DNA of 64,000 nt from assembly GCF_021155765.1 (NCBI RefSeq), contig NC_060108.1, positions 13,789,025 to 13,853,024 on the forward strand, read 5' to 3'. The DNA comes from Diprion similis (lineage: Eukaryota; Arthropoda; Insecta; Hymenoptera; Diprionidae). How positions within the stretch are numbered: the stretch's first letter is position 1; each line of letters begins with the position of its first letter. Both the position numbers and the translations under genes were made by a program. Under the pieces are notes generated by a model, which worked only from the letters and a program-made list of their open reading frames with translations, did no database searches and was not told the origin of the DNA. This document shows, piece by piece, positions 23,100 to 57,623 of the stretch.

Positions 23100-23280
23100 T
23101 GTGTTTTTAATCAATCCTTCGTTCGTTTCTATCCTCTTTTATTCCTGCCTCCTGTAACACTCAGCTATTAAACTGTGATACAAAAAAGATAAACTCCATT
23201 CCAACCCAGATAAATATTTGAAAATCCTCTTATTGTTCTACATATATCTATCTATATTTATAAAGTAACAAGAAGTGACA

Positions 23281-24055
23281 ATGCCTGTAGGACCGATCAA
23301 GAATCCTTTGATAACAATCAAACCTGGAGCAGCTTTGATAGAGTTTGTAGTAAAAAAAGTAACTGATGTAGAAAAAGCTCCGGATGGTATAACTACGCTA
23401 AAAAATTCAACTAAAAAACAGCGGTCAAATGTTGTGCTGAAACTAGACGATGTAAGATGGCTGAACAATTATTTGATAGAGTGGAGAAAAACATCAGACG
23501 AAAAATTCTACATCCATGAATTTTTGGAGACATCTGAAATCATTCTCCCAACGCCAGAAGTGACCCCGAGAAATCCCGAGCTCGAGGCCAGAATTCAGAA
23601 GTTGATACTTCAACAAAATAGTCGGGATTATCGAGCCATGACTAAAAACATTGACTCAGTGCGGAAAAAGTTTCCTGAAGATACAATCGCCTACCAAAGT
23701 GAGGAAAACGTCTTAACTTAGCTTTCTATTTTATCTGAATATCTCTCATTTCAGTATGGCCTATTCTTGTAATGCTAATCCACTTATACATTCTGTTTCA
23801 GTGAAAGAAATGAATAGGCATCTCATCGCTGTTGCCCAGTTCATCTTCTCCGTACTTGCTGGATTTATGTTTGGCTTTATTGGCATAGAATTAATTATTG
23901 GTAATTTGGACTTTGGATTTAGATTGTTACTAGGTATAATTTTTGCTCTGATCATAGCACTAGCTGAGATATACTTTTTGGCTAAAAAACTTAACGAAGA
24001 AGACTACATCATCACAATGGATGCTCTACCAACAAAAAAATTTCATCAAGAATAA
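23281..24055 (+). CDS. TMEM199: TMEM199 / Vma12-type V-ATPase assembly factor
   Basis: An ER membrane protein that helps assemble the V0 sector of the proton-pumping V-ATPase (yeast Vma12p orthologue). Two exons, 23281-23698 and 23802-24055, give 223 residues. The split codon joins ...DTIAYQ to MKEMNRHLIAVAQF. The first about 140 residues are soluble and charged. Two hydrophobic segments follow, at about 147-170 (FIFSVLAGFMFGFIGIELII) and 175-197 (LLLGIIFALIIALAEIYFL), forming the Vma12-type membrane hairpin. The C-terminus is short and ends KKFHQE. The ATG at 23281 is used because the frame before it has only a GTG. The upstream neighbour BLOC1S5 ends 181 bp earlier, so a shared or overlapping transcript is possible. 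Confidence 0.88.
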
Positions 24056-24938: not shown

Positions 24939-25650
24939 CTACCCCTCATTTGAATCTTCTTCACTGTCGCTGGATTGATTTTGTCCATTTTCCTTGTTGC
25001 TAGCATCTTTGTTAACAGACTCGTCACTAGAACTACTGGAAACGTTGGCATCCCCGTTTCCGTTTCTTTTCTTAGCTCCGTCGTCGTGTGAAGAAGTACT
25101 ATCAGATTCACTGTCACTATCAGAGTCGGATGAACTTTCTGATGAGCTGCTATCAGATGAAACTGGATTTTTCTTAGCCATCATTTCCTTGAATTCCCTC
25201 ACTGTAATCTTCCGCGGTACTATCTCTCGAAGGAATTCTAGTGTTTCGCTTGTTTGCACAACCTCAGCCAAGTTCTTATAGTCCAAACTGCCACTCTTGT
25301 TTCCTTGACGGTGAGCCTCAACCGTCAAATGGTGAATAAATAATTCCTGTAAACGAAAATAAAAATAATAATTTCATATAAGTATTTCGGAGTTTTCAGT
25401 CATTTGAAATTCCCGCGTTATTAAAGAAAAGAAGGCATCTGCCGGTTGCCTAGCCACTTGGCGCGGTACTTGAGAGTTGTTGGCTTCGTTAATCGAATAC
25501 AGCATATTGTCGTACCGTTGCTTTGGCAACAAGGAATAAACAGTCCTGTCCGACGGTCTCAACGTATGGAGAACTTTTCATTATTGTTTTCACTCGGGAT
25601 AACGGTAAATGCAGATCTTTCGGCTTGTGCGGTGAGGCTTGGGACGCCAT
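24939..25650 (-). CDS. CHRAC1: Chromatin accessibility complex subunit 1 (CHRAC-15/16), histone-fold protein
   Basis: The histone-fold partner of CHRAC-17/POLE3 in the ISWI-containing CHRAC nucleosome-sliding complex, acting in the nucleus. Two exons, 25650-25516 and 25346-24939, give 180 residues. The fold begins with LPLSRVKTIMKSSP at about 16-29, continues across the junction ...LFLVAKAT|ELFIHHLTVEAHRQ, and ends near TSETLEFLREIVPRKI, the same landmarks as human CHRAC1. The C-terminal about 75 residues are a serine/aspartate/glutamate-rich low-complexity tail, longer than the acidic tail of the human protein. The ATG at 25650 is chosen because the next codon upstream that could start is only GTG. 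POLE4 was considered, but the MKSSP and SETxxFL features fit CHRAC1 better. Confidence 0.92.
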
Positions 25651-26930
25651 TGCTTCAAATTCACTTAAAATCACTTCGGCAGTCAGCTGCTAGTGACGTA
25701 ACGCCTGACTAAAGTCTGTGCATGTACAGATGTGCGCGGTTATTATTCTAGATCCCACAGTTGATTGGAGAATGTCGACGAATCGCAAATTTCGAGGAAA
25801 ATTCTCTAGAAAAACTATCGAAAATCAAAGATACTATCACCTCACAGAACATCAGCGAAGTATAAAATAAACGAATTTCATTCAAAATTAAAACAAACTC
25901 TGTAGCCTACTTCAAATCTCTGCCAGGAATGACGCCACAATCAAATCGACTTTGTCACCATCTGGCGTATAGAAAAACTACTTTCTCAATGGTAGATCAA
26001 ATTGTTTGATAATTAATACCAGTTATTACTATCGGAAAGTGGCGTTATTTGGCAGGTAATATTCCTTACAACTCGATGCAAGATTTTCAATCAATCAGCA
26101 GCTCATATCCGAAGGCTAAAATTCTTGTCTGATTCGGTTTCAGGCCAATTGCCTTCAGGCTTAACGTGGGCCTCGCGTGCATGTATTACCAACATAGCGA
26201 CAGTCAACTGTCAATGACCGTCAATAAAATCAGCTGTTCGAGAGTCTATCGTTAACGCGTTCGTTAAATAATTCAATGAATCGTATAGGAATCATCTTAA
26301 CAAAAGAAAAAACGAAGGGCAGATGCTAAATTCAATATGGCGACACGCCGTCGCTCTGATAGAAGAAAATTTGCACCCCACGCATGCATACAAGGCGCTT
26401 TGTTGGTTGGAGTTTAAAAATGAACCAGTGCAAAGGATAATGTGAATTAGTATCACACGTCTCGAGCATTTCTCCTCTCGACTAAGTAAACGACAACGTT
26501 ACGGAGGATCCAACGTTCGATATACTGTTAACCTATTCCGCCGTTGTTGTCCTTCACCGTAGACGTCAAACAAGGTGAGACATTCATAGTTGAGAATGGG
26601 AAAACAAAGGCTAGTTTTTGTTAGCTTGCGATTTGTTTCCCGACACAACGATAAAATGAAACCACTCGTCCATCGCTTCCTGAAGCTCCTCCCAATTCCA
26701 TTAATTCGTGCCCGGCGTGGCTCTTTCCACGCAAATTGCGAATCTAGGAATTTTAAATTAGAGGTTATGTTTTTTTCAAACGTCACTTAAATATTACGCG
26801 TTATTTAAAATCTTTGGTTACAAAATTATCCCTTTATAAAATGCTTAATCTTACTGGAAACACATCATCTCAGCTTCCTCGCTAAACTGCGGACACCGTT
26901 TCTCTCTTATGGGTAAGAACAAAGCCTACG
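25651..26930. promoter_or_regulatory. Divergent CHRAC1/STARD3 spacer with a probable STARD3 5'-UTR exon
   Basis: The 1.28-kb space between the CHRAC1 and STARD3 start codons should contain both promoters. A good donor, CAAACAAG|GTGAGA, ends at 26574, and a good acceptor, CACATCATCTCAG, ends at 26873. This suggests an untranslated STARD3 exon ending at 26574, joined to an exon that starts at 26874 and contains the ATG at 26931. Reading frames of 66-95 codons in this area overlap on opposite strands and are not supported. Confidence 0.4.
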
Positions 26931-29900
26931 ATGATCGATGACGAACGGAGAATTAGAGCAGCTGCCGAGGCGCTGCTTAACAGATCGCTACAATCCCAAA
27001 GAAGCTCTTTCACTCAGCACAGCATCAACCGAGCATCCGATGTAGTGCTTAGTGAAGATCTCATCGCGGGGACCAGACACCAGGGCAGAATGTCCAATGT
27101 CAGACGGTTCTTTTGCCTATTCATCACGTTTGATGTACTATTCACTTGCCTTATGTGGCTCATTTGCACAATGGTAAGTTTCAAAAAACTTTGATTAAAT
27201 GATCCAGCAAGCAGGCTGGCAAAATATCTTATCTGTTCTAATCAATTTTCAGAATTTTATCTACTAATATTCTAATATTTCCCCCCTGTTCCAGTTCAGT
27301 GGAGACCACATAAAAAACGCATTTGTGAATCAAGTTATTCACTACAACATCAAGACTTCTCTATTCGATCTAGTGGTGGGTATTTGACATGATTTTGCTA
27401 TACTATGTTTAGAGAATATACCTACAAGTAGGTGTAATTCTGTATATTCATTTATTTTTTAAAATGATAGAGCTACATATGTGATAATTTGTTCTCTTTC
27501 TTTGTTTTTTCTTTTACAGATGGCTGCTGTCTGTAGGTTCACTGTCTTGCTTCTATTTTATGGACTTTTGTACATTAACCATTGGATAATTATAGCTGTA
27601 AGTGATTTGGTTCATTATGATATACAGTATGCCAAAGATTAGTGGTATATAGGTTTAAATAAAAATTGAAATAAAAAAGTCATTGAAGAACTCATGTATC
27701 TCGATTAAGTTTTTCAATGCTGGATCGTTACAGCAGTTTGCTCGGTTTCTTCTTTCTTGTTTGGTGCAATCCAGCAGAAGTCACTATGTTAAAGTCGTTT
27801 ACCTTGAACCACGAATTAGTAAAATAAAAAGTATGGAAGTCGTCATAGAATTTCACAATTAGAGAATCATCACTTCCTCAATCATATTCTTTTTCACAAT
27901 ATAAGTATTTATATGAACTTAAAATTGAACGTAAGAAATGCTATACTACTTATTTTCCCATAGGTATCAACTGCAACAACGTGCGCTTTTCTCATCGCCA
28001 AAGTATTTTTTTTTGACGTAAGTAGAATGCAAGATAAATGTTTCAATTTAGAAATAATAAAGAGTATCGTGTATGCTGCTGGCAAGTCTAAAGCCTATTT
28101 TGTTCAATCTGACAACTTGCTCGTAGCTAAATCAAACTGTGGAATAATTCCCTTAAGAATTTGTTCACACTTTATTTATTCTTGATGATATTTAGTGTGG
28201 GCAATTATTTTAGTGGTCTGCAAGTAACCTGTCTGTATTCGAAGTGCTGCTTATCCTCTCATCATTTGTGCTAGCATGGAGCGAAGCTTGGTTCTTCGAT
28301 TTTCGGGTAATCCCTCAAGAAACGCAGGCTAGAGATTGGCTTATAGGTGAGTTACAAATTTCCTAATTCTTTTACCCTCCAACGACAAAATTGGCTGTAC
28401 AATCAGTTGACGAGCTCTTGGTTCATGCGATATAATTCTTTCAAATGCTCTTTTGAACCTAATACTAGAAAGAAACGGAATTTACAAAAAAAAAATTTCC
28501 ACCAGGTTCTTCAGGATCAGAACGAGCACCGCTTTTGCAACAATTTTTGTCTGGCCCTCTTTCTCACTACACAGAAAGCGTTGGTAATTTCTATTCCCCA
28601 ATGGAGACGCCGGAGCATTCGGATGACGATGAAGATGGGAGAGGCACATTAGCTGCAGGGCGGACGATATCGTCAGACCATTTCGTCCCACCAATACTAC
28701 CCAAGTTAACCCCAGAAAAGGTTGGTACCAAGCTGAGTATATCGGTGTTATTCTATTTTATAAACTGGTCATTGTTCTGGTGCTGAGGCAACTCCCATCG
28801 AAAAATTTGTGCTAAGCAAGCTAATAAAAAATATTAGTAATCGTAATAATAAATCTTACACAACACCAGAATTTCTTAATCTGGATCTACCCCAGCCAGG
28901 ACAACTTATATTCAAAGAAGGCATTGTCGTCATATTCCTCCCCACTTCCTGAATTGCGTATTGCTCTATGACGCGTCTTATGGTTCTGACTAATCCCATA
29001 GTGGTAGCAGGCCTTGCGAGTATTCGGATTAGCTTAGAAGTTTCACTTGCGTTATTGCTGTGCACGGTGAACAAGTTAAAGCATATAGCCTACCAAACTT
29101 ACTTAGTTTTCGTGATAAGAACTCGTTTTCCGATTTAAGATATTTTTGAAACTTAATGCAAACATTCTAGAAAATACTTGTGTGGGTACGAACAATCTGT
29201 GCAAAAAAATCCAAAGTACAGATTAGTTAATGACTACTTACGGTACAAAAAAAGGAGCCATTTACATAGGTTTTTTTTTTATGACATTGAAGTGTAATGC
29301 AGGTAAAAAAAAAAAAGTTTTTCAATTTTTTGGAGTGCATTTGAATAAATAAATTTTGATTCTATACATCAAATAATAACCAAAATCTTCATGTATTAGT
29401 TATAAAGTCTGCTTTTGTCTTTTTTACATTGATTATAATATGGGTGTTAATTCAGAAGAATAAGGAGAATGTTTTCATCAAGATATGTTGGACTCTGAAG
29501 TTTAATGGTCATCAAAGATAGTAAAATGAGAGAATGATGGAAAATTACGTTTGGGGTTTAATATGAGAAAGTCCAGACAAACATAGAAGAAGTACAAAAA
29601 ATATTCATTTTTGAACTTTGTTTATCAATTCTTTTATGTTTGTAGTTTGTTATTAATTATTATTTTTTAACAAAAGTAATTTAAATGCGAAATTGAAGTT
29701 TGTTTAATTGTTATTTACAATAAATGTTTGAGAGTATACGTGATTTTTCTTAAAATCCGAAATATCGTTCTGTTTTCGACAAAAGCAAACTTTATCGTAT
29801 AAAACCATTTTTTCGCTTATTAGTTGAATAGAAGTTTGGAAAATGAATCTCTAAGCTTAGCTGTATTCCAGTAATCATAACGTATTTGTATTCATAATCT

Positions 29901-31946
29901 TTCATGTAAGTTCGTTTCGACGCTAGCCCAATGTCGCGGATTTCGAAAATATGATTTTCTCCTTTTAGTTACAACTTCACAACATCTCATTAACGATCTT
30001 GAAGTGACCTTGATTCAGTGCAATTGATGACACTATATGTGTATGTGAAACAGGTGCTACAAAGAAACGCGAAACAGTAGTAAAGTGTAATTGACAGTGT
30101 ATTATATTCAAAGTCTGACAGTTACAAGTTTTCATCTACAGTTTTGATTATCTTCAAACTGTTACCAACAGTTGTGCTTGCTACATACAGCATGAAGTGT
30201 CTGAAAGGCTTCTTCTTTGGTGATCGAAACCATAAAATGTTGGAACACAGCGATCACAAAAAAGAAAAGTACAAAGATAAGGATGAGGTGGATAATGCTA
30301 GCTGTAATAAAGTAAGTTCGGAAAGATCAATGATGGCAATATTTATGGTTGATATCAATCGGTCAACATTTTTCTTTATTGTGTCTTGAACGTGAAAGGC
30401 AGGTCGAAAAAACTGATCACGTTGTTTTTATTTACGGTTTTGCACTTCTTCCGATACTACAGAGGACAAATGCCTTGCAGGTATTTCTTGAAATTCTTTA
30501 CGAACTGTTTAATTGTCAAGGCTTGAACAATGGAGCAAAGACTGATTCATAGACAGCTGTGACCTCTATTCCATTAATTCGTTTTTGTTGTGCACCTTAT
30601 GTATCCATTGCATTACTCCTTTTAGGGGCATCACATTTCGTTAGTCATCATCTGTTAGTAAAGTGTAGAAATTGGTATTTATGTATCATGTATTACAATT
30701 ACGAGCAAGGCACAAAAACACTTTGTTCGATCCCTCAATTACTCTGCTATGTCAGCGTTGTTTATTCTTGTCAACTGCATCATAAATAACTGTCAAAATG
30801 ATGCCCGACCAATAGTGTGAAAGGGCATTCAAAAACATTGAAATTTATCTTTCTCTCAAAATTGGTATTTAGTTATACCAAATTTCGAAATAGAAATCTT
30901 GCATGGGAGTTGCATCGCAGTTGCAGAGACGAACAATGCAAAATAAAAATTATGTTGCAGTCAGTCTAAAGAAGATTTAGTACATTCTTCCAATCTGAAA
31001 TTACTTACGTTTTTTTCGTACTGTTTATTTTCTTCCCTTAAGATTGAAGAATACCAAAAAATTGGAGCCGAAATAATAGATCGTTCATGGGAACTACTTA
31101 CCAGTCCTGATTGGGTCATAGAACAAGAAACTGCTGAAGGAGACACAATATCGTCGATGCATCTTCCAAAACCTGATGGAAAAATAATGAAGATCACCGT
31201 AAGTTCTTCTTCGAACATTTAAGAACATTGGAATTTTATAATTCATACTAAAGTTCTTTTTCCAACTTGTAGGGAATAATTGACATCTCGGCGCATGAGT
31301 TACTGCAAGAATTATTCGAAAATATTGAAAACACTCCAACATGGAACAAGCACTTGGCAGAGTCAAAAAAGATCCAAGTGAGTTGATTATTTTTTTCCCT
31401 CAGCCCTCACGTACATCAATTTTCATTATATTGTGGCTCTCTTGTTCAAATGAATTCGAAAAGCTTTGAATCCTTATTTGTCAAACAGGTGATAGACGAG
31501 CAAACCGACATAATATATCAGGTGACACTGCCACAGGGTGGCGGAATCGTGGGAGCAAGAGATTTTGTAGTTTTAAGGTGTTACGGCGAACGAAATTCCT
31601 GTCTCATTAGTGCCGGGGTTTCTATACCATTTCCTCACATTCCACCCCGCAAGAATTTCACGCGGTGAGTATTTTTATCACATTGAGTGGAGCAAAAAAC
31701 TTGACATCATGTGATTTTCATTTCGAATATAACTCAAATTGCTCAATCAGGGGCGAGAATGGTGTTGGATGCTGGGCAATGGAGCCGTTGGAGGGTGAGG
31801 AAAACCTGCGTTGCAGATTCACATGGTTGTTGAACACAAACTTGAAGGGGTGGTTGCCAAAACGAGTAATTGATGCCTCTCTTACCACTGTTACCGTAGA
31901 TTTTATGCAGTTTTTACGTGAGCACGTACGCCAGATGAAAGACTGA
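26931..31946 (+). CDS. STARD3: STARD3 / MLN64 / Start1: MENTAL-START cholesterol transfer protein
   Basis: A late-endosomal membrane protein that binds and moves cholesterol and tethers endosomes to the ER. Ten coding exons: 26931-27173, 27295-27375, 27520-27597, 27964-28017, 28214-28346, 28506-28720, 31043-31198, 31273-31377, 31489-31664 and 31751-31946. They give 478 residues and all are in phase. Residues about 55-196 form the four-helix MENTAL domain. [17 protein letters not shown] at 224-240 is a phospho-FFAT motif (core serine 227) for VAP binding, equivalent to the one in human STARD3. Residues about 269-478 are the START domain, with [11 protein letters not shown] and the final ENGVGCW...[14 protein letters not shown] block. 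Between exons 6 and 7 is the gene's largest intron (2.3 kb), which carries a possible alternative first exon. The gene is divergent from CHRAC1. Confidence 0.95.
28586..28640 (+). other. Phospho-FFAT motif and acidic tract within STARD3
   Basis: The codons read NFYSPMET followed by [10 protein letters not shown]. In vertebrate STARD3 the matching QFYSPPES stretch is a phospho-FFAT motif: the serine at core position 4 must be phosphorylated for binding to the MSP domain of VAP/MOSPD proteins in the ER. Here the aromatic Y, the SP pair, the glutamate two residues on and the acidic cluster are all kept. Function is inferred from the human protein. Confidence 0.8.
30142..30311 (+). other. Possible alternative first exon of STARD3 (START-only isoform)
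   Basis: Inside the 2.3-kb intron, an ATG at 30192 opens 40 codons ([16 protein letters not shown]..., then a lysine/aspartate-rich stretch) ending at a consensus donor AATAAA|GTAAGT at 30311. The phase is 0, exactly what exon 7 needs, so the product would be a short leader plus the complete START domain without the MENTAL domain. An acceptor-like CATCTACAG ends at 30141. If the exon were instead spliced after exon 6, the frame would stop within two codons (TTT TGA), leaving a MENTAL-only protein. No transcript evidence is available here. Confidence 0.5.
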
Positions 31947-32854
31947 TGATTATCATATGGGTTATAAAGCTAATGATAAATCGATTCGTTTGAATAGCCA
32001 AGAATTCATCGCAATCCATTTATCGACCTCATCTTGATTCGTTGCTTATGCACCAACCCTGTATGTTTTACACGTCTATACGGTACATATCATATCAAAG
32101 AAAAAAGGAAAAATCAGCAAACAGAGAATCAGCTTGACACCATGACATGGTTGTTTGACATTTCATCAATATTAATTTTTGTTCAATTTTTTCTATTCAT
32201 TTTCCTCACTGCAAATTACTGATTTTATATTCGAAATGTGAAGCATACCTATACCTATACTTTACTATTATGATAATACGAAGTGCTAAAGAGTTCTTAG
32301 GCAGGTAAAGTATTTTTACTTATATAGTCTTGAAATGGTTTCAATGCAGTAAAAAAAGATTATGGATTATATTTTTGTAGTACTTTATGTGTACCCATGT
32401 ATGGTTATCATTTACCTTTCAAATTGCAATGCAAGGTAGGTATTTACGAACGTAATCTTCAAGGTTTATTTATTTTTGGCCAGGTTCTGATACATATATA
32501 TTGATCAGAACATCTTTCACACTGATCAATTTTTAATATTATATGAATATGCAATTTCATACTGGTCAAACGAACGCCTATAATTCAGAAGTGATTCACC
32601 GTTATAATGGTGAAAAAAAAAAAATTGTTATAACTTTACTTGTCTAACACTCCGTCACACTTTGCGACGCGATTTTTCGCAAAAATACTGCAACATCTGT
32701 CGATTGGCGAAAAATCTCAAGGAAATTGTGTAATCAGGTACAGAATAATTTAGAAACTTAATCGGTTTTGGAAGAAATTGATGCACAGCCATAATAACGA
32801 TGAAAAATTTCAGAGGTTGTGAAAATTTGCTACATTAACATTTTAAAAGTAAGA
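31947..32854. other. STARD3 3' region, no gene seen
   Basis: AT-rich sequence downstream of the STARD3 stop, probably holding its 3' UTR. No canonical AATAAA was found close to the stop. The short frames present have no family resemblance. Confidence 0.4.
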
Positions 32855-33360
32855 TTAAGACGTGGTTGAACAGTGATTACGTATTAATTCAGCACTCAAA
32901 GGGTTAAAAGAGCCTGATATACGTATAATAGTTGTTGATGAATTCATACCACGGGCACATTGCTGTACAATAACTGCATTCCAAGTCAACCGCTTGATCT
33001 GTGCCTTCGTAATATCTGACTGAGAAAAAGATAAGATGAATAAACTTGGAAAAAAATTGACGAAACAAATGTTACCAAGATTGAACGTGGATATGACATG
33101 TTGTACCAATAATGTATGATTATGTATATATTTTCCTTTTCTAACACGACATATTTTATTTCATTATTTTCCTTTGAGTATACCTGAAACACAGTCATAC
33201 ATTGGCTAGCTGCGTACCAATCGATCTCATTATTTACTTTCACAACAACAGCTGATGAGCCAGCTTCCGTTAACGTATCAGGTCCCCTGATTTCAGAACT
33301 AGCTAAATATATAATCAAATGGATAAATAAATGATCACCGATGTATAATATTTGCAGCAT
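32855..33360 (-). CDS. Unassigned candidate coding exons (minus strand)
   Basis: Not recognised. On the minus strand a block encoding ...AGSSAVVVKVNNEIDWYAASQ ends at a GTATAC donor near 33183. In phase, it can join an acceptor (TTTCTCAG) at about 33023 that opens SDITKAQIKRLTWNAVIVQQ and runs to a stop near 32855. Codon content and the matched splice phase look better than chance. Further upstream, 33393-33477 can encode LQRFIDQREVRMRHKNAWLN, but its end phase does not match the acceptor at about 33305. This could be a small unknown gene, a degraded gene, or chance reading frames in the STARD3 3' flank. Confidence 0.25.
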
Positions 33361-49100: not shown

Positions 49101-52100
49101 TGTGACTGAATTGAAGCCGGCGAGTATTATGCTGATCTCTAATTGGAATAATATGTGGTATTACTATCAATAATAAATTTCAGAATGTTATTGTGTTATC
49201 AGATTCTACAAGACATGATGATAGAGATCGACTACGATTCGGATGGAACAGTTTCACTGGACGAATGGAAAAGAGGGGGCCTAACGACAATCCCGCTACT
49301 TGTACTCCTGGGACTAGATTCGCACGTTAAAGAGGATGGCAATCACCTCTGGAAGCTGAAACACTTCAGCAAACCTGCCTATTGTAACCTTTGTCTCAAC
49401 ATGCTTGTAGGTTTGGGTAAAAAGGGATTATCCTGTGTCTGTAAGTTCGATATTGCGAGCATTAGATCTTTTGCAAAATAATTCCAGCGAATTGTGTATC
49501 GTTAATCGTTATTTGTGTGCTGATTTTAGTTTGTAAATATACTGTCCACGAAAGATGCGTACAAAGAGCGCCTGCCTCTTGCATAGCAACTTACGTCAAG
49601 AGTAAAAAGACTTCTCAAACAATGGTTCATCATTGGGTCGAAGGTAACTGCCATGGGAAGTGTTCAAAGTGTAAAAAGACGATAAAAAGTTACAACGGTA
49701 TCACGGGACTCCACTGTCGATGGTGTCAAATAACTGTGAGTAAAACTGCTTTGTCTCTTTTGGTTGGTTCTAAAACTCTCTTTTGAAATTTCGTTCTATT
49801 ACTCTATTGAATTTTTTTATGAATGTCGATGCAAGTTGAAACACTACTTAAAAAATTGGCCAACATTCAAAGAAAGGATTTGAGAGGTCCGGAATTACTC
49901 TTAGTAGGTTTATATTCGTCGATAAATGTATTTCTTGATTCCCTTGCATTTCTCTTTTCTTCTTTCTCTGAATGTCTGTAAACATCAGCAAGTTTGGAGG
50001 AAATCAAACAAAATCTGGTAAAAAGTATCGATTTTGACGCACCAAACGTACTGAAAAGTTTACGCAAAAACGTTCTCTATGCAATCTTAAACAAAAAAAA
50101 ACATCCACAGAGATTTGTAGAAAAAATTGTCGTCGGGATTTTGTGGCGTGAGTTGCTTTTTAGTCCAGTTGTACCTCTTTCAGCTCCACAACAGATGCGT
50201 TTCTCAAGTCAGAGCCGAATGTACACTTGGAGAATACGCAGCCCACATTTTACCTCCAACTGCCATCTGCCCTGTAGTTATAGACAGGCAACGATCGTTA
50301 TCGAGGGACAGTAAGAGAGGCAGTAGATATGGTCCAGACAACGCATCTATCACATCCGTAAGTACTCAATATATATCCTGTTTATTATACTAATTCTAAC
50401 AATGATACAATTCTTCCCAGAATGCCGCAGCTTCCAGGGGGGGTTCGTCCAACCAGCAGCCTGCGATGTCTTTTCAGATAACATTGCCACCAGGGGTAAC
50501 GCCGCTCGTAGTTTTTATAAATCCAAAATCTGGTGGTAGGCAGGGTGAAAAAATGCTGAGGAAGTTTCAGTACATACTAAATCCAAGACAAGTTCACAAT
50601 TTGGCTACTGGTGGCCCGATGCAGGGGCTCCAAATGTTCAAGGATGTGGAGAACTTCAAAGTTATTTGTTGCGGGGGAGATGGGACTGTTGGATGGATAT
50701 TAGAAACCATGGGTAATGCTTCCCATGCCAAACGAACATTTTTTAAACCAAATTTCACTTGTTGCTTCATGTGATATAAGTGTCAATTTTTTTTGTTGTA
50801 TCCTGACATTTGAAAAAGATGATAAACAGTTTTCAAAAATTCTTTGTTTAACAATTTGAAGCACAGAACATATTCTGTTTGATCATCATCAACGAATTGT
50901 TCGGCATTGTTTTCAGACCATGTCCAGTTCCTACAGCAGCCTGCTGTAGGAGTAATACCACTGGGAACAGGCAATGACTTGGCAAGATGCTTGCGTTGGG
51001 GTGGTGGATATGAGGGGGAAGCAATTTACAAGGTTTTGAAGGTAAGGATTAAATTTCTGAGACTTGAAGTGGCGGTGTAAAAGTTTCACATTTCATGCTT
51101 TTTACAGAAAATAGAAAAAGCAACGCCGGTAATGATGGACCGATGGCAAATCGAAATGATAGACCAAGATGAAGAAAGAAAACCAAACCAGGATTCCATA
51201 CCGTACAACATAATCAACAACTATTTCTCTGTTGGTGTTGATGCTGCGATTTGCGTTAAGTTTCACTTGGAGAGGGAACGAAATCCAGAGAAATTTAATA
51301 GCAGAATGAAGAACAAACTGTGGTATTTCGAATATGCAACTAGCGAGCAGTTTGCTGCAAGTTGTAAGAACCTCCATGAAGATTTGGAGATAATAGTACG
51401 TATATTATTCTGTATATGCACTGTAATATTGTACTCAACATTGTTTTCATAGTTTAATTTCAGGGTGACCACCGGTCAGGGAATTCTTAAATTCTGAAAT
51501 AGTCAGGGATTTTTGCGGAAAGTCAGGGAATCGTTTACTAGATTTTTTGTTTTCATATAAATACGTCCCACAATTTTCTTAAGCTTTAGATAAATCAGGT
51601 CGAATATAAATATTATACCATCGCCGGTATTCTCTTTAAACTTTGAATATTCCTAAATATTACCTCATAAATGATTGTGTGCTTCGGCTAGATGGTACAG
51701 TATGAACCGAGTGATAGTTGATTCTTTCATAATAAAAAATTATATGGAAAATGCGTATGTTTTTTTCAATTTGCTATCACCAATTTATTCGAATTGGTCA
51801 GGAGAAATTGTAAGATTTTTGTCTGGAGAACCTAGAAAAGTAAGGGAATTTTGAGATGGAGATTTAGTTGCCACCCTGTGTAACCAAGAGTGCCTAAAAG
51901 CATATTATATGTTTTGTTTCTTTTCAGTGTGATGACATTCCTTTAGATTTAGCTCACGGACCCTCGTTGCAAGGTGTCGCCCTGTTGAACATCCCCTTTA
52001 CACACGGGGGCTCAAATTTATGGGGTGAACATCACGCGAGGCATCGCCTTGGGAAGCGTAGAAAACGTCCAGACAAAGAACTGAGCACTAGCAGTTTTAA

Positions 52101-53072
52101 TTCTGTAGATTTAAACGCAGCTATTCAAGGTGCGTTGACAATCATTTACCAACACTCATAATCAGATCGGAATAGATTAAAAACCATTCCATTCACCTGC
52201 ACCGTCTAATTCTCGTTGAATTGCTGAAACTCTTTAAAGCTGTTTACAATTTGGTAACAGCTCATCTAGCTAAGTAAAAAAGTCTATAATCGTGGGGTGA
52301 TGCTTATCATGAGTAGCTCCCTTAATTGCGAGCAGCTCCGCCACACCCTTCAATTACCTCGGGGAAAAACCCTTGTTCTATTAATAAACCTGTCGCAAAA
52401 CGAGAAGCTTATGTGTCTCGGTATACGCTCAAGAATTACTTACAGCCTAGAACGGAGTAGCAATAAAACTTAAAAGCGTGTATATGACTAAGAATCTACA
52501 GAGGAAAGAATTCTAATTCAAATTTATGCAAATAGAAATAATCATATACCTAACTTTAATGAATTTGAAAATTGGGAATTTACAAATTGCAGTATTTTAT
52601 TGCCACCCAGAGAATGAATAATAATAGCTCGCCAAGCTTTATAAGCGTAATTATACTGTTTTCAATTGCATGGGAAATATCTGTTCCAGATATAGGAGAC
52701 AATCTCATAGAAGTAATAGGTTTGGAAAATTGTTTACACATGGGTCAAGTCAAGACAGGTCTCAGAGCATCTGGAAGAAGACTTGCCCAGTGCAGCAGTG
52801 TTAAAATAAAAACTACTAAAAGGTTTCCCATGCAGATTGATGGAGAACCATGGATGCAGGGACCATGCACGGTAAATCTCATTAAGCTGAGGTGTTTTTG
52901 CTGGTGTGATAATGGAGTTGATGACGACGATCTTTTTGCAAAATTTAATATATTCGTGTAATATTGAATCTTTTGGTTTCAGATTCACATCACTCATAAA
53001 AATCAAGTACCGATGTTGATGGCTCCCCCTCCGGAGAAAAGTAAAGGATTTTTTCGCTTTTTAAAGAGGTAA
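46105..53072 (+). CDS. Dgk: Diacylglycerol kinase, type I (calcium-responsive; DGK alpha/beta/gamma class)
   Basis: Phosphorylates diacylglycerol to phosphatidic acid with ATP at membranes. There are 17 coding exons: 46105-46168, 46905-46993, 47214-47348, 47447-47672, 47805-47966, 48435-48557, 48933-48982, 49045-49119, 49203-49440, 49530-49735, 50184-50357, 50421-50712, 50917-51041, 51108-51395, 51928-52129, 52690-52871 and 52983-53072. They give 906 residues. Order: recoverin-homology region (1-96); a serine-rich linker (about 97-235) with no match in vertebrate proteins, which explains the extra length; EF-hand loops [12 protein letters not shown] (273-284) and [12 protein letters not shown] (318-329); two C1 domains (about 356-480); catalytic domain from about 536 with NPKSGG (548-553) and GGDGT (599-603); accessory domain with [22 protein letters not shown] and a final FFRFLKR. 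The first exon follows an acceptor at 46028, so an upstream untranslated exon exists. The intron at 49120 uses a GC donor. Confidence 0.95.
49120..49202 (+). other. GC-AG intron in DGK
   Basis: Both flanking exons are fixed by conservation (TELKP | ILQDMM, as in vertebrate DGK-beta TELNP | ILHEMM). The only donor that keeps phase 0 is CCG|GCGAGT, ending the exon at 49119. The acceptor ATCAG ends at 49202. The nearest GT downstream would shift the frame. Confidence 0.85.
51461..51878. mobile_element. Inverted-repeat element in a DGK intron
   Basis: It begins CAGGGTGACCAC and ends with GTTGCCACCCTG, whose reverse complement begins CAGGGTGGCAAC. The 418-bp interior repeats 'GTCAGGGAAT'-type phrases and has no frame. 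It sits wholly within the intron at 51396-51927 and shares its first 12 bases with the element at 2612, so the two are probably copies of one non-autonomous family. Confidence 0.65.
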
Positions 53073-54969: not shown

Positions 54970-57623
54970 TCACTCTCTGAGCATAATTGTTCTTAGTGAA
55001 TCTTCAGGATGGATTTCCATAACTGCAATTGTTCCATCGTTGAAGGGAACAGCGATACCACCGTCTAGTACTAGTCCTGCGTCGAAGCAATGTGAACGAA
55101 TGATCAGCTTCTTGCAATATCCGCGAGGTTGAATTCCTTTTGGCAATGGTAATGTTTGTCCCACAATCATATCTCTAATTGTGTATGCTATTTTTGTATC
55201 CTCTGAAATGATATGAACGTCAATCTACTTGCGGATAATTAGTAAGAACCATGGCATAATAATCAACTGAACAATGGAGTTCATTAATTGTCACCCTCAC
55301 TGACAATGCTAACCTGCGGGAAACTGCAGTCTTTTATTGTACTCCATTGATATATCCTCAGTTTTTGTACTAGGTTCAATTTTAACATTCGCAAGTTTTA
55401 GGACGTCGTCAACAACTTGCGGACTAAGACTGTTGATTGCTTTGTGCCAAGATGTTGAGCCTGTCCCAGTGCTGGCACATAACCCGCAGCTCTTTATTTT
55501 GAACCATGAAATTTCGTCCCCAAAATTCACCTCCAAAGTGCTTGTCCTTGCCGACAGTGATTCACCCACAAAGACCTGACAAGATATAAACGGTACAATA
55601 AAACAAATCTTTGGTATCATATTTTGGAGGCACTGCAGTCTACCGACAATATCTGTGGAACGCAATGAATGCATTTTTTCTAATTTGCTAGCCTCCAACA
55701 AAGGCTAGAAGAGGCTATTATCATCGATGTATTCGAGAATCAATCGTCATTTCATATGATTGAATTTGTCAGTTTGGTAATAAAACATACTTCATTTAAG
55801 GCCAACCATGGAAGTCGTCTCTCTTTTGGCACCTCTGCTGCTGTGTCTGCCTTGAATGCGTCATCCACGTAAAACCTGTCGTAAAAAATCAATTCTCGTT
55901 TTGAAATAAATACCGTTGGTTGAAAATAGAAATGCAAGATAAATATGAAAACCACCAGCCTTGTGTGATTTAGAATACTTTACAAAAAATTGAATTACCC
56001 AAGGATATGGTTGTTCTCTGCAGCAGTATCTTTGTCTGTATATCTGACTCGTTGCTTTTCTTCGCCAGCCACTCGCCACTTTTCATGCATGTGAAAGGGC
56101 GGATTCCAAATCCCTTTACCTTTGAGGGTAGTTCTGATTCTACTTCGCATGACATAATTGTAATCCCCTGATCTGAGAAGCTCAAATATCAATCTTATGT
56201 CTCTGGTATATTTCTCAGGCAGCATCAAATACCCTTCTGACGATGACGGATCAGAATTTATGCCCATTATACGCTTCTTGTTGTCACGTATCAGATTTGA
56301 TGAGAATAAAAAAGTTCCATCTCCACCTATCGGTAGAATCAGATCTGCCCAGTCGAAAGTGTTACGATCTATCGTTAACCTAATGGAATGCAGTTAGGAG
56401 GTGAGCGAATAAAAATATCATTCAAATTTCAGTTGTATAGACAATAATTATGCATAGTAATAATCCTTGAAAAACATATATCAGTCAAATCACCATATAC
56501 AGGCGGTATTTTTGTATTCAATTTTTTAATATTTTCAACAAGTAGATAAAGAGAGGATATTATGCTTTCCCTCGTGTGAATTTGTTTAATGATTTTTTAT
56601 TCATTTCGAGTGTGCCAAAAATATAATATTGAAGTTTAGATTGATTCTTTTACTGAAATTTCTCATGCTCAGTGTTACAGGTTTGAGTAGAGTCTAATTA
56701 AAACAAATAATTATTGGCTGTTTTCATCAGGCGTGTCTCTCTGAGGATCAAAAACTTGTTGCAATTACAGCAAATATTGAAGTTAATACTTTCCTTACAT
56801 CCCATGGCTTTCATCTTAATTAAAAACTACACGATATAATAAAAAGTCAAGTGAGTTTTCGCGAATGAATAGATAAACTATATTTTCCTAAAATAGATAA
56901 TTGATTACAAATGGCTTGTGGCCTACGTAATTTTTCTTCGTACTTACCTATTTGTTACTCTATATTCAATGTTTAATTCTTCCAACACAGTTTTCGTCTC
57001 CAATTCTCTCTTGCGGTCATTATTGTGGCTGGTAAGCAATGCGTCATAATCAGATCCTCTCTCGATAAGTTTCGTCCTAAATTGAGATTCACTCAGATTT
57101 GGTTCGCGCAGTCTTTCGAAATAGTAACGTGATACCTTGGTCAATATTAGAACTCTCTTTGGTACAAAGCTGGATTCATGACGGGCAAAAATTCGAGATT
57201 GCCTCCGGAGGAGCGCCGAAGTTTTTAAAAATTGAAAAGTTCCTGAAAATAAATCGTAGGATTCACACTAATGGATACAAAAAAAAGTAATAGTGGTCCT
57301 AAAAAGTGAACAGCAAAGATCAACTTATCATGTTTCAAACAATTCATATTTTCAAATAATTCGAAATTCAAATTTCCCCGCGCCATGTCTGATATTTATA
57401 TTCAAGAAGCTGATCTGTGTATCATTTACGTTATCTATGACTTAACAGAACGGCTGATCCCTCCCCCCCAACTGATTCGATTCTTGAATGCCGTCTGCTT
57501 TGGTTGGGAATGACAATTTCGATCATAATCTTATAATACGGTTAGGTTTTCGTAATTTATATACAATGTTGAGGTTTTCTACTCACTGCTTACTTTCCTA
57601 TGCAACAGAGCAAGTGCTGTCAT
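54970..57623 (-). CDS. NADK2: Mitochondrial NAD kinase 2
   Basis: Phosphorylates NAD to NADP in the mitochondrial matrix, supporting NADPH-dependent reactions there. Six exons: 57623-57587, 57242-56948, 56379-55999, 55875-55791, 55575-55314 and 55202-54970. They give 430 residues, all in phase. The N-terminus MTALALLHRKVSRTFQF...LLRRQSRIFARH is basic, lacks acidic residues and fits a mitochondrial targeting peptide. The kinase core starts at FVPKRVLILTKVSRYYFERL, with the GGDGT motif at 129-133, GINSDPSSSEGYL just after, ALNEVFVGESLSAR, CASTGTGSTSW and, near the end, DAGLVLDGGIAVPFNDGT and LRTIML, all matching human NADK2 landmarks. The first exon uses donor AGCA|GTGAGT. A GT 7 bases earlier would give the wrong phase. 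The gene is convergent with DGK. Confidence 0.93.

Follow-up and report, generated by a model that had tools for sequence, protein, structure and literature searches.

A STARD3 gene in Diprion similis carries, within the intron that follows its phospho-FFAT exon, a 170-nt segment at 30142-30311 with the appearance of a genuine additional exon. The exon is predicted and unproven, and it stands above what bare chance would be expected to provide. We tentatively propose, as a quite possible reading, that STARD3 uses it as an alternative 5' coding exon, from which a CBP-like, START-only isoform would be made. All positions refer to the window, the whole stretch of 64,000 nucleotides that was analysed.

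Structure and identity of the STARD3 gene

The window contains a complete STARD3 gene on the + strand (26.5-31.95 kb), encoding MENTAL, phospho-FFAT and START. Its parts are as follows.

26931..27173, + strand: coding exon 1, with ATG 26931 and the start of MENTAL (PF10457, E 7.4e-09)
27295..27375, + strand: exon 2 (frame and splice sites)
27520..27597, + strand: exon 3 (MENTAL match at window positions 27496-27648)
27964..28017, + strand: exon 4 (frame and splice sites)
28214..28346, + strand: exon 5, end of MENTAL, phase 1 at its end (MENTAL E 4.5e-15)
28506..28720, + strand: exon 6, phospho-FFAT, phase 1 in and phase 0 out, donor GTTGGT
28721..31042, + strand: host intron of 2,322 bp, from the FFAT exon to the first START exon
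31043..31198, + strand: exon 7, where START begins (PDB match of the START protein after joining of its exons)
31273..31377, + strand: exon 8 (PDB match of the START protein and frame)
31489..31664, + strand: exon 9 (START PF01852, E 2.8e-05)
31751..31946, + strand: last exon, coding part (START matches and frame)

The spliced frame from ATG 26931 encodes 478 aa and shows four hydrophobic peaks, as in the four-transmembrane-segment MENTAL domain. In Pfam, MENTAL (PF10457) is above cut-off in two of the 5' exons, with matches at three places, while START (PF01852) matches the 3' exons. The exon at 28506-28720 reads, by eye, N1F2Y3S4P5M6E7T8, with S/T at positions 4 and 8. The human STARD3 phospho-FFAT is given in PMC13044316 as Q1F2Y3S4P5P6E7, followed at position 8 by a residue that can be phosphorylated; NFYSPMET fits this motif and the position-8 rule as stated there. 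The START domain is of the STARD1/STARD3 kind: in the PDB it matches StAR (3p0l, E 4e-34), silkworm CBP (7ztq, E 1.5e-33) and human STARD3 (E ~3e-25), whereas other START proteins reach E 2.9e-13 or weaker. The gene model, its frames and splice signals and the intact START domain can be read directly from the DNA, and the sequence-only reading of this stretch had the gene's identity, coordinates and frames right.

Seven START matches are listed for the genome at E 0.01, from a search that, like the one for MENTAL, scored just the best candidates. Two lie in STARD3 and two, by eye, in a RhoGAP-START gene; the other three fall at two places (C14:10472244 and C6:1877xxxx), so a separate CBP-like gene may exist elsewhere in the genome.

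The window holds further coding sequence. Diacylglycerol kinase exons lie at 50917-51041 and 51928-52129 on the + strand (PF00781, E 2.5e-08; PF00609, E 0.00049, below cut-off), an exon at 56948-57242 on the - strand matches mitochondrial NAD kinase 2 (PDB, E 4.3e-05), and an open frame at 23275-23718 on the + strand matches Vma12, an assembly factor of the V-ATPase (PF11712, E 4.6e-07).

The candidate exon

Four features bear on the candidate exon and on how it might be joined.

30192..30311, + strand: putative alternative start of coding, an ATG with 40 codons and donor AAA/GTAAGT
30142..30311, + strand: whole potential exon of 170 nt, acceptor to donor, a single open frame, phase 1 in and phase 0 out
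26570..26574, + strand: possible end of a noncoding first exon, donor AAG/GTGAGA (score 6.08), candidate partner of acceptor 30142
29901..29905, + strand: donor with the highest score in the intron (4.95), where an intronic noncoding exon may end

An ATG, 40 codons and a phase-0 consensus donor had been described within the 2.3-kb MENTAL/START intron, and they are present: 40 codons are open from ATG 30192, and the donor AAA/GTAAGT after 30311 is in phase 0. Exon 6 ends at 28720 in phase 0, and exon 7 begins at 31043 with ATT GAA GAA, also in phase 0. The exon had been given as 30142..30311; this span holds for the whole potential exon, whereas its coding part in a START-only form begins only at 30192. 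The ATG has A at -3. In the candidate's own frame, 56 codons and 2 nt are open back to the acceptor at 30142 (sequence CATCTACAG/TTTTGA, the slash marking the splice site). The same frame continues for 20 codons above the exon and 25 below it; from stop to stop it spans 30084-30386 and therefore overruns both splice sites. The G+C content is 35.9% in the exon, compared with 31.5% and 34.7% on its flanks.

Splice sites were scored with generic donor and acceptor matrices that were not fitted to this genome. On this scale the donor after 30311 scores 4.56, against 2.45 to 6.35 for the nine STARD3 donors. Acceptor 30142 scores 2.63, against -1.78 to 8.16 for the nine STARD3 acceptors, and exceeds three of them; it ranks fifth among the eight acceptors in the intron that score at least 2 and is unremarkable.

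K, D and E abound in the 40-aa leader. Neither it nor the 56-aa leader from the acceptor has a match in Pfam; the 56-aa leader has no PDB match up to E 10, and prokaryote and viral collections yielded no relative. The 331 bp at 30000-30330 have no match in the genome other than themselves and are thus single copy; an origin from a repeat or transposon is unsupported, this segment being without a second genome copy. A structured RNA was rejected: nothing in 25000-33000 matched Rfam up to E 1.

Chance expectation and coding signal

The main rival to a real exon is a chance pseudo-exon, never used, that arose where decoy splice sites happen to flank an open frame of the AT-rich intron. We consider this about as likely as the START-only reading and hold it just as tentatively; under it the STARD3 gene would be an ordinary one. 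Dinucleotide shuffling of the intron argues against it: an ATG followed by 40 or more codons and a phase-0 donor of this quality arose in only 35 of 3,000 shuffles, and the same structure with an equally good acceptor no more than 150 nt upstream in 15 of 3,000. Function-free cases nevertheless exist. The genome background comprised 20 stretches, 10 of satellite repeats (L005-L013 and L019) and 10 of unique sequence; in the latter, the ATG-frame-donor structure occurred four times in 200 kb-strand (~0.05 per 2.3 kb), although two of the four cases lie in the gene-bearing stretch L024.

Two of the satellite stretches, on the same contig, consist of arrays that fill the 10 kb: L011 (G000:C4:4600001-4610000) has a period of 148 and 67.6 copies, and L019 (G000:C4:9400001-9410000) a period of 279 and 35.8 copies. 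L005-L010, L012 and L013 (C4, 1.0-5.8 Mb) are mostly repeated 20-mers.

On both strands of the window, nine acceptor-frame-donor structures of 120-300 nt, in any phase, score as well as the candidate or are the candidate itself. True coding exons overlap six of the eight others and account for five distinct exons, assigned to STARD3 (three structures), diacylglycerol kinase (two, one of them below the Pfam cut-off) and NAD kinase 2 (one). The remaining two are a structure antisense to STARD3 and one for which Pfam gives no match. Where the donor is in phase 0, both window structures besides the candidate fall in real exons. That most equally good structures in the window are real exons speaks against chance. 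Outside the window, the background stretches hold three phase-0 structures of this kind. One is weakly supported (V-ATPase regulator, E 0.046), and for the other two (L014, and L020 as searched in Pfam only) no support was found. This count of two in three favours a pseudo-exon, as does the choice of several introns that a 64-kb scan offers.

Coding models were built from 20 kinase exons, with nine unique stretches as background; L024 was left out because it carries a gene. For the 40 codons, the frame score is 9.4 (reached by 14 of 307 background ATG frames) and the codon score 2.5 (reached by 33 of 307). Of these 307 frames, 6 reach both scores, compared with 39 of 106 held-out kinase windows. 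For the 56 codons from the acceptor, the comparison used 4,000 mutually overlapping background windows sampled from 9,210: a frame score of 15.3 is reached in 7 of them and a codon score of -0.1 in 622, while both together are reached in none, compared with 20 of 69 kinase windows. The codon periodicity is exon-like, which also argues against a pseudo-exon.

The codon score itself is positive in the 40 codons (+0.06 per codon) and negative in the 16 codons between acceptor and ATG (-0.16), in the 20 codons of the same open frame above the acceptor (-0.42) and in the 25 codons downstream of the donor (-0.37). By codon score the intron's best segment, at 12.0, is ordinary: 42 of 152 background blocks, of which half are satellite, reach or exceed it. 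An ordinary codon score and a frame that runs past both splice sites are what a pseudo-exon would be expected to show. The coding test has low power in this gene, since several genuine STARD3 exons also score weakly. On the minus strand the intron scores higher, with 13.5 over 52 codons antisense at 28880-29035.

A predicted START-only isoform

If the exon is used as the start of a START-only form, we infer that transcription would begin inside the big intron, or that a noncoding exon would be joined to acceptor 30142. Such a noncoding upstream exon could end, for example, at 26574 or 29905. Translation would then proceed from ATG 30192 across the junction from 30311 to 31043 into the complete START domain. 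The arithmetic of this form had been worked out in the sequence-only reading and is borne out: the in-frame start lies outside the MENTAL exons, the START domain is complete, and the product is 250 aa and reads IEEYQKIG at 31043. Having neither MENTAL nor FFAT, it would be a freely diffusing lipid carrier, of sterol or carotenoid, as opposed to the 478-aa membrane tether.

An acceptor would be useless to a pure promoter exon, and a noncoding exon joined to 30142 is therefore favoured. Evidence for a promoter near the candidate exon is poor, comprising one TCAGT at 30015 that is followed by three ATGs. A START-only form that began at the end of the intron without splicing was rejected, since the frame is open from 30947 to 31043 but contains no ATG. 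Taken as a whole, the proposal that the exon is the source of a START-only isoform is partly supported by the fitting frames, the rarity of the structure in shuffles and the exon-like periodicity. The single-copy nature of the segment and the confinement of all three listed MENTAL matches to this gene also count in its favour; the lack of any match for the leader, the modest rank of the acceptor and the overrunning frame count against it.

Other splicing outcomes

The exon could also act as a cassette after 28720, which we regard as improbable. The upstream acceptor and the immediate stop that had been described for this case are real: after 28720 the frame reads one residue (F) and then TGA, leaving either a 269-aa MENTAL-FFAT protein resembling STARD3NL or a reduced level of mRNA, the segment then acting as a poison exon. 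By frame arithmetic alone, MENTAL and FFAT would be retained and translation would stop before START. The splice sites fall within the range of STARD3's own, and there is no second MENTAL gene among the genome matches listed, all three MENTAL matches lying within the STARD3 gene. PMC13044316 describes STARD3NL as MENTAL and FFAT only, which is what the cassette would leave. In vertebrates, however, STARD3NL (MENTHO) is a paralogous gene, whereas the form predicted here would come from splicing, its stop being followed by four more exons. With the stop upstream of those exons, degradation of the mRNA would be likelier than a stable protein, and a poison exon would not require the codon periodicity that the candidate shows. 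The earlier idea that one exon toggles both halves of the protein thus stands as regards the stop after 28720, but is weakened by the four exons downstream, which may expose the mRNA to degradation.

Replacement of the FFAT exon is a further outcome that was absent from the sequence-only reading and is new here. Since the candidate is open in one frame from phase 1 to phase 0, it could replace the FFAT exon in frame. Splicing from 28346 to 30142 and from 30311 to 31043 would give a 463-aa STARD3 unable to hold the ER. Both exons are phase 1 in and phase 0 out (215 and 170 nt); including both leads to a stop and including neither shifts the frame, so the two are mutually exclusive by frame. When the FFAT exon is skipped alone, one residue is followed by a stop, and that variant was rejected. 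The frame open to the acceptor and the rarity of its 56-codon frame score among the sampled, overlapping background windows favour replacement. On the other hand, agreement of phase alone is expected in about one-third of cases, and the codon score is negative over the 16 codons that precede the ATG. The protein would also have a fifth hydrophobic peak (2.14, at residue 196 of its frame), which would tend to misplace START across the membrane. We therefore rank the START-only form above replacement, which adds this fifth hydrophobic segment and which we consider about as improbable as the cassette.

Most improbable of all is a three-way switch, in which joining to a noncoding exon would yield the soluble START-only form, joining to 28346 would replace the FFAT exon and unhook the ER, and joining to 28720 would stop translation.

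Comparison with known START proteins

The START-only form has a precedent in silkworm CBP. In the silkworm, according to what Sakudoh reportedly described in 2005, a single gene gives rise to a MENTAL-START form (BmStart1) and a START-only form (CBP). The window gene would resemble this system if it makes the predicted second form. The match to CBP (7ztq) runs from the first residue of the window's START domain, and IEEYQ in the window, opposite IDEYK in CBP, coincides with the exon border at 31043. That CBP exists and binds lutein is stated in PMC3903547; carotenoid binding by the window's START domain would be a prediction from its sequence similarity to CBP. PMC9952040 gives the CBP construct as residues 68-297, which suggests a leader of ~68 residues before IDEYK, as opposed to 40 here.

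Vertebrate STARD1 (StAR), the best PDB match (3p0l), is likewise a single START domain behind a short leader. StAR is, however, a separate gene with a mitochondrial presequence, unlike the K/D/E-rich leader in the window. As for the honeybee locus 'Protein star-like', the name may denote the unrelated Star gene instead of a StAR-like one. A honeybee sweep study treats it as a StAR-like cholesterol transporter (PMC4900560). STAR is reported missing from insects in PMC3790746.

Among the matches listed from open-licence literature (titles and the starts of abstracts), there was no START-only STARD3 isoform outside the silkworm. If the START-only reading is true, the exon would plausibly represent a further CBP-type isoform of a STARD3 gene. 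The silkworm with its CBP would then not be alone in deriving a soluble START-only carrier from the gene of a membrane-tethered sterol transporter, which would suggest that animals lacking a separate STARD3NL or StAR gene share this solution or have reached it repeatedly. The isoform would also be a specific candidate for transporting sterols or carotenoids in soluble form.
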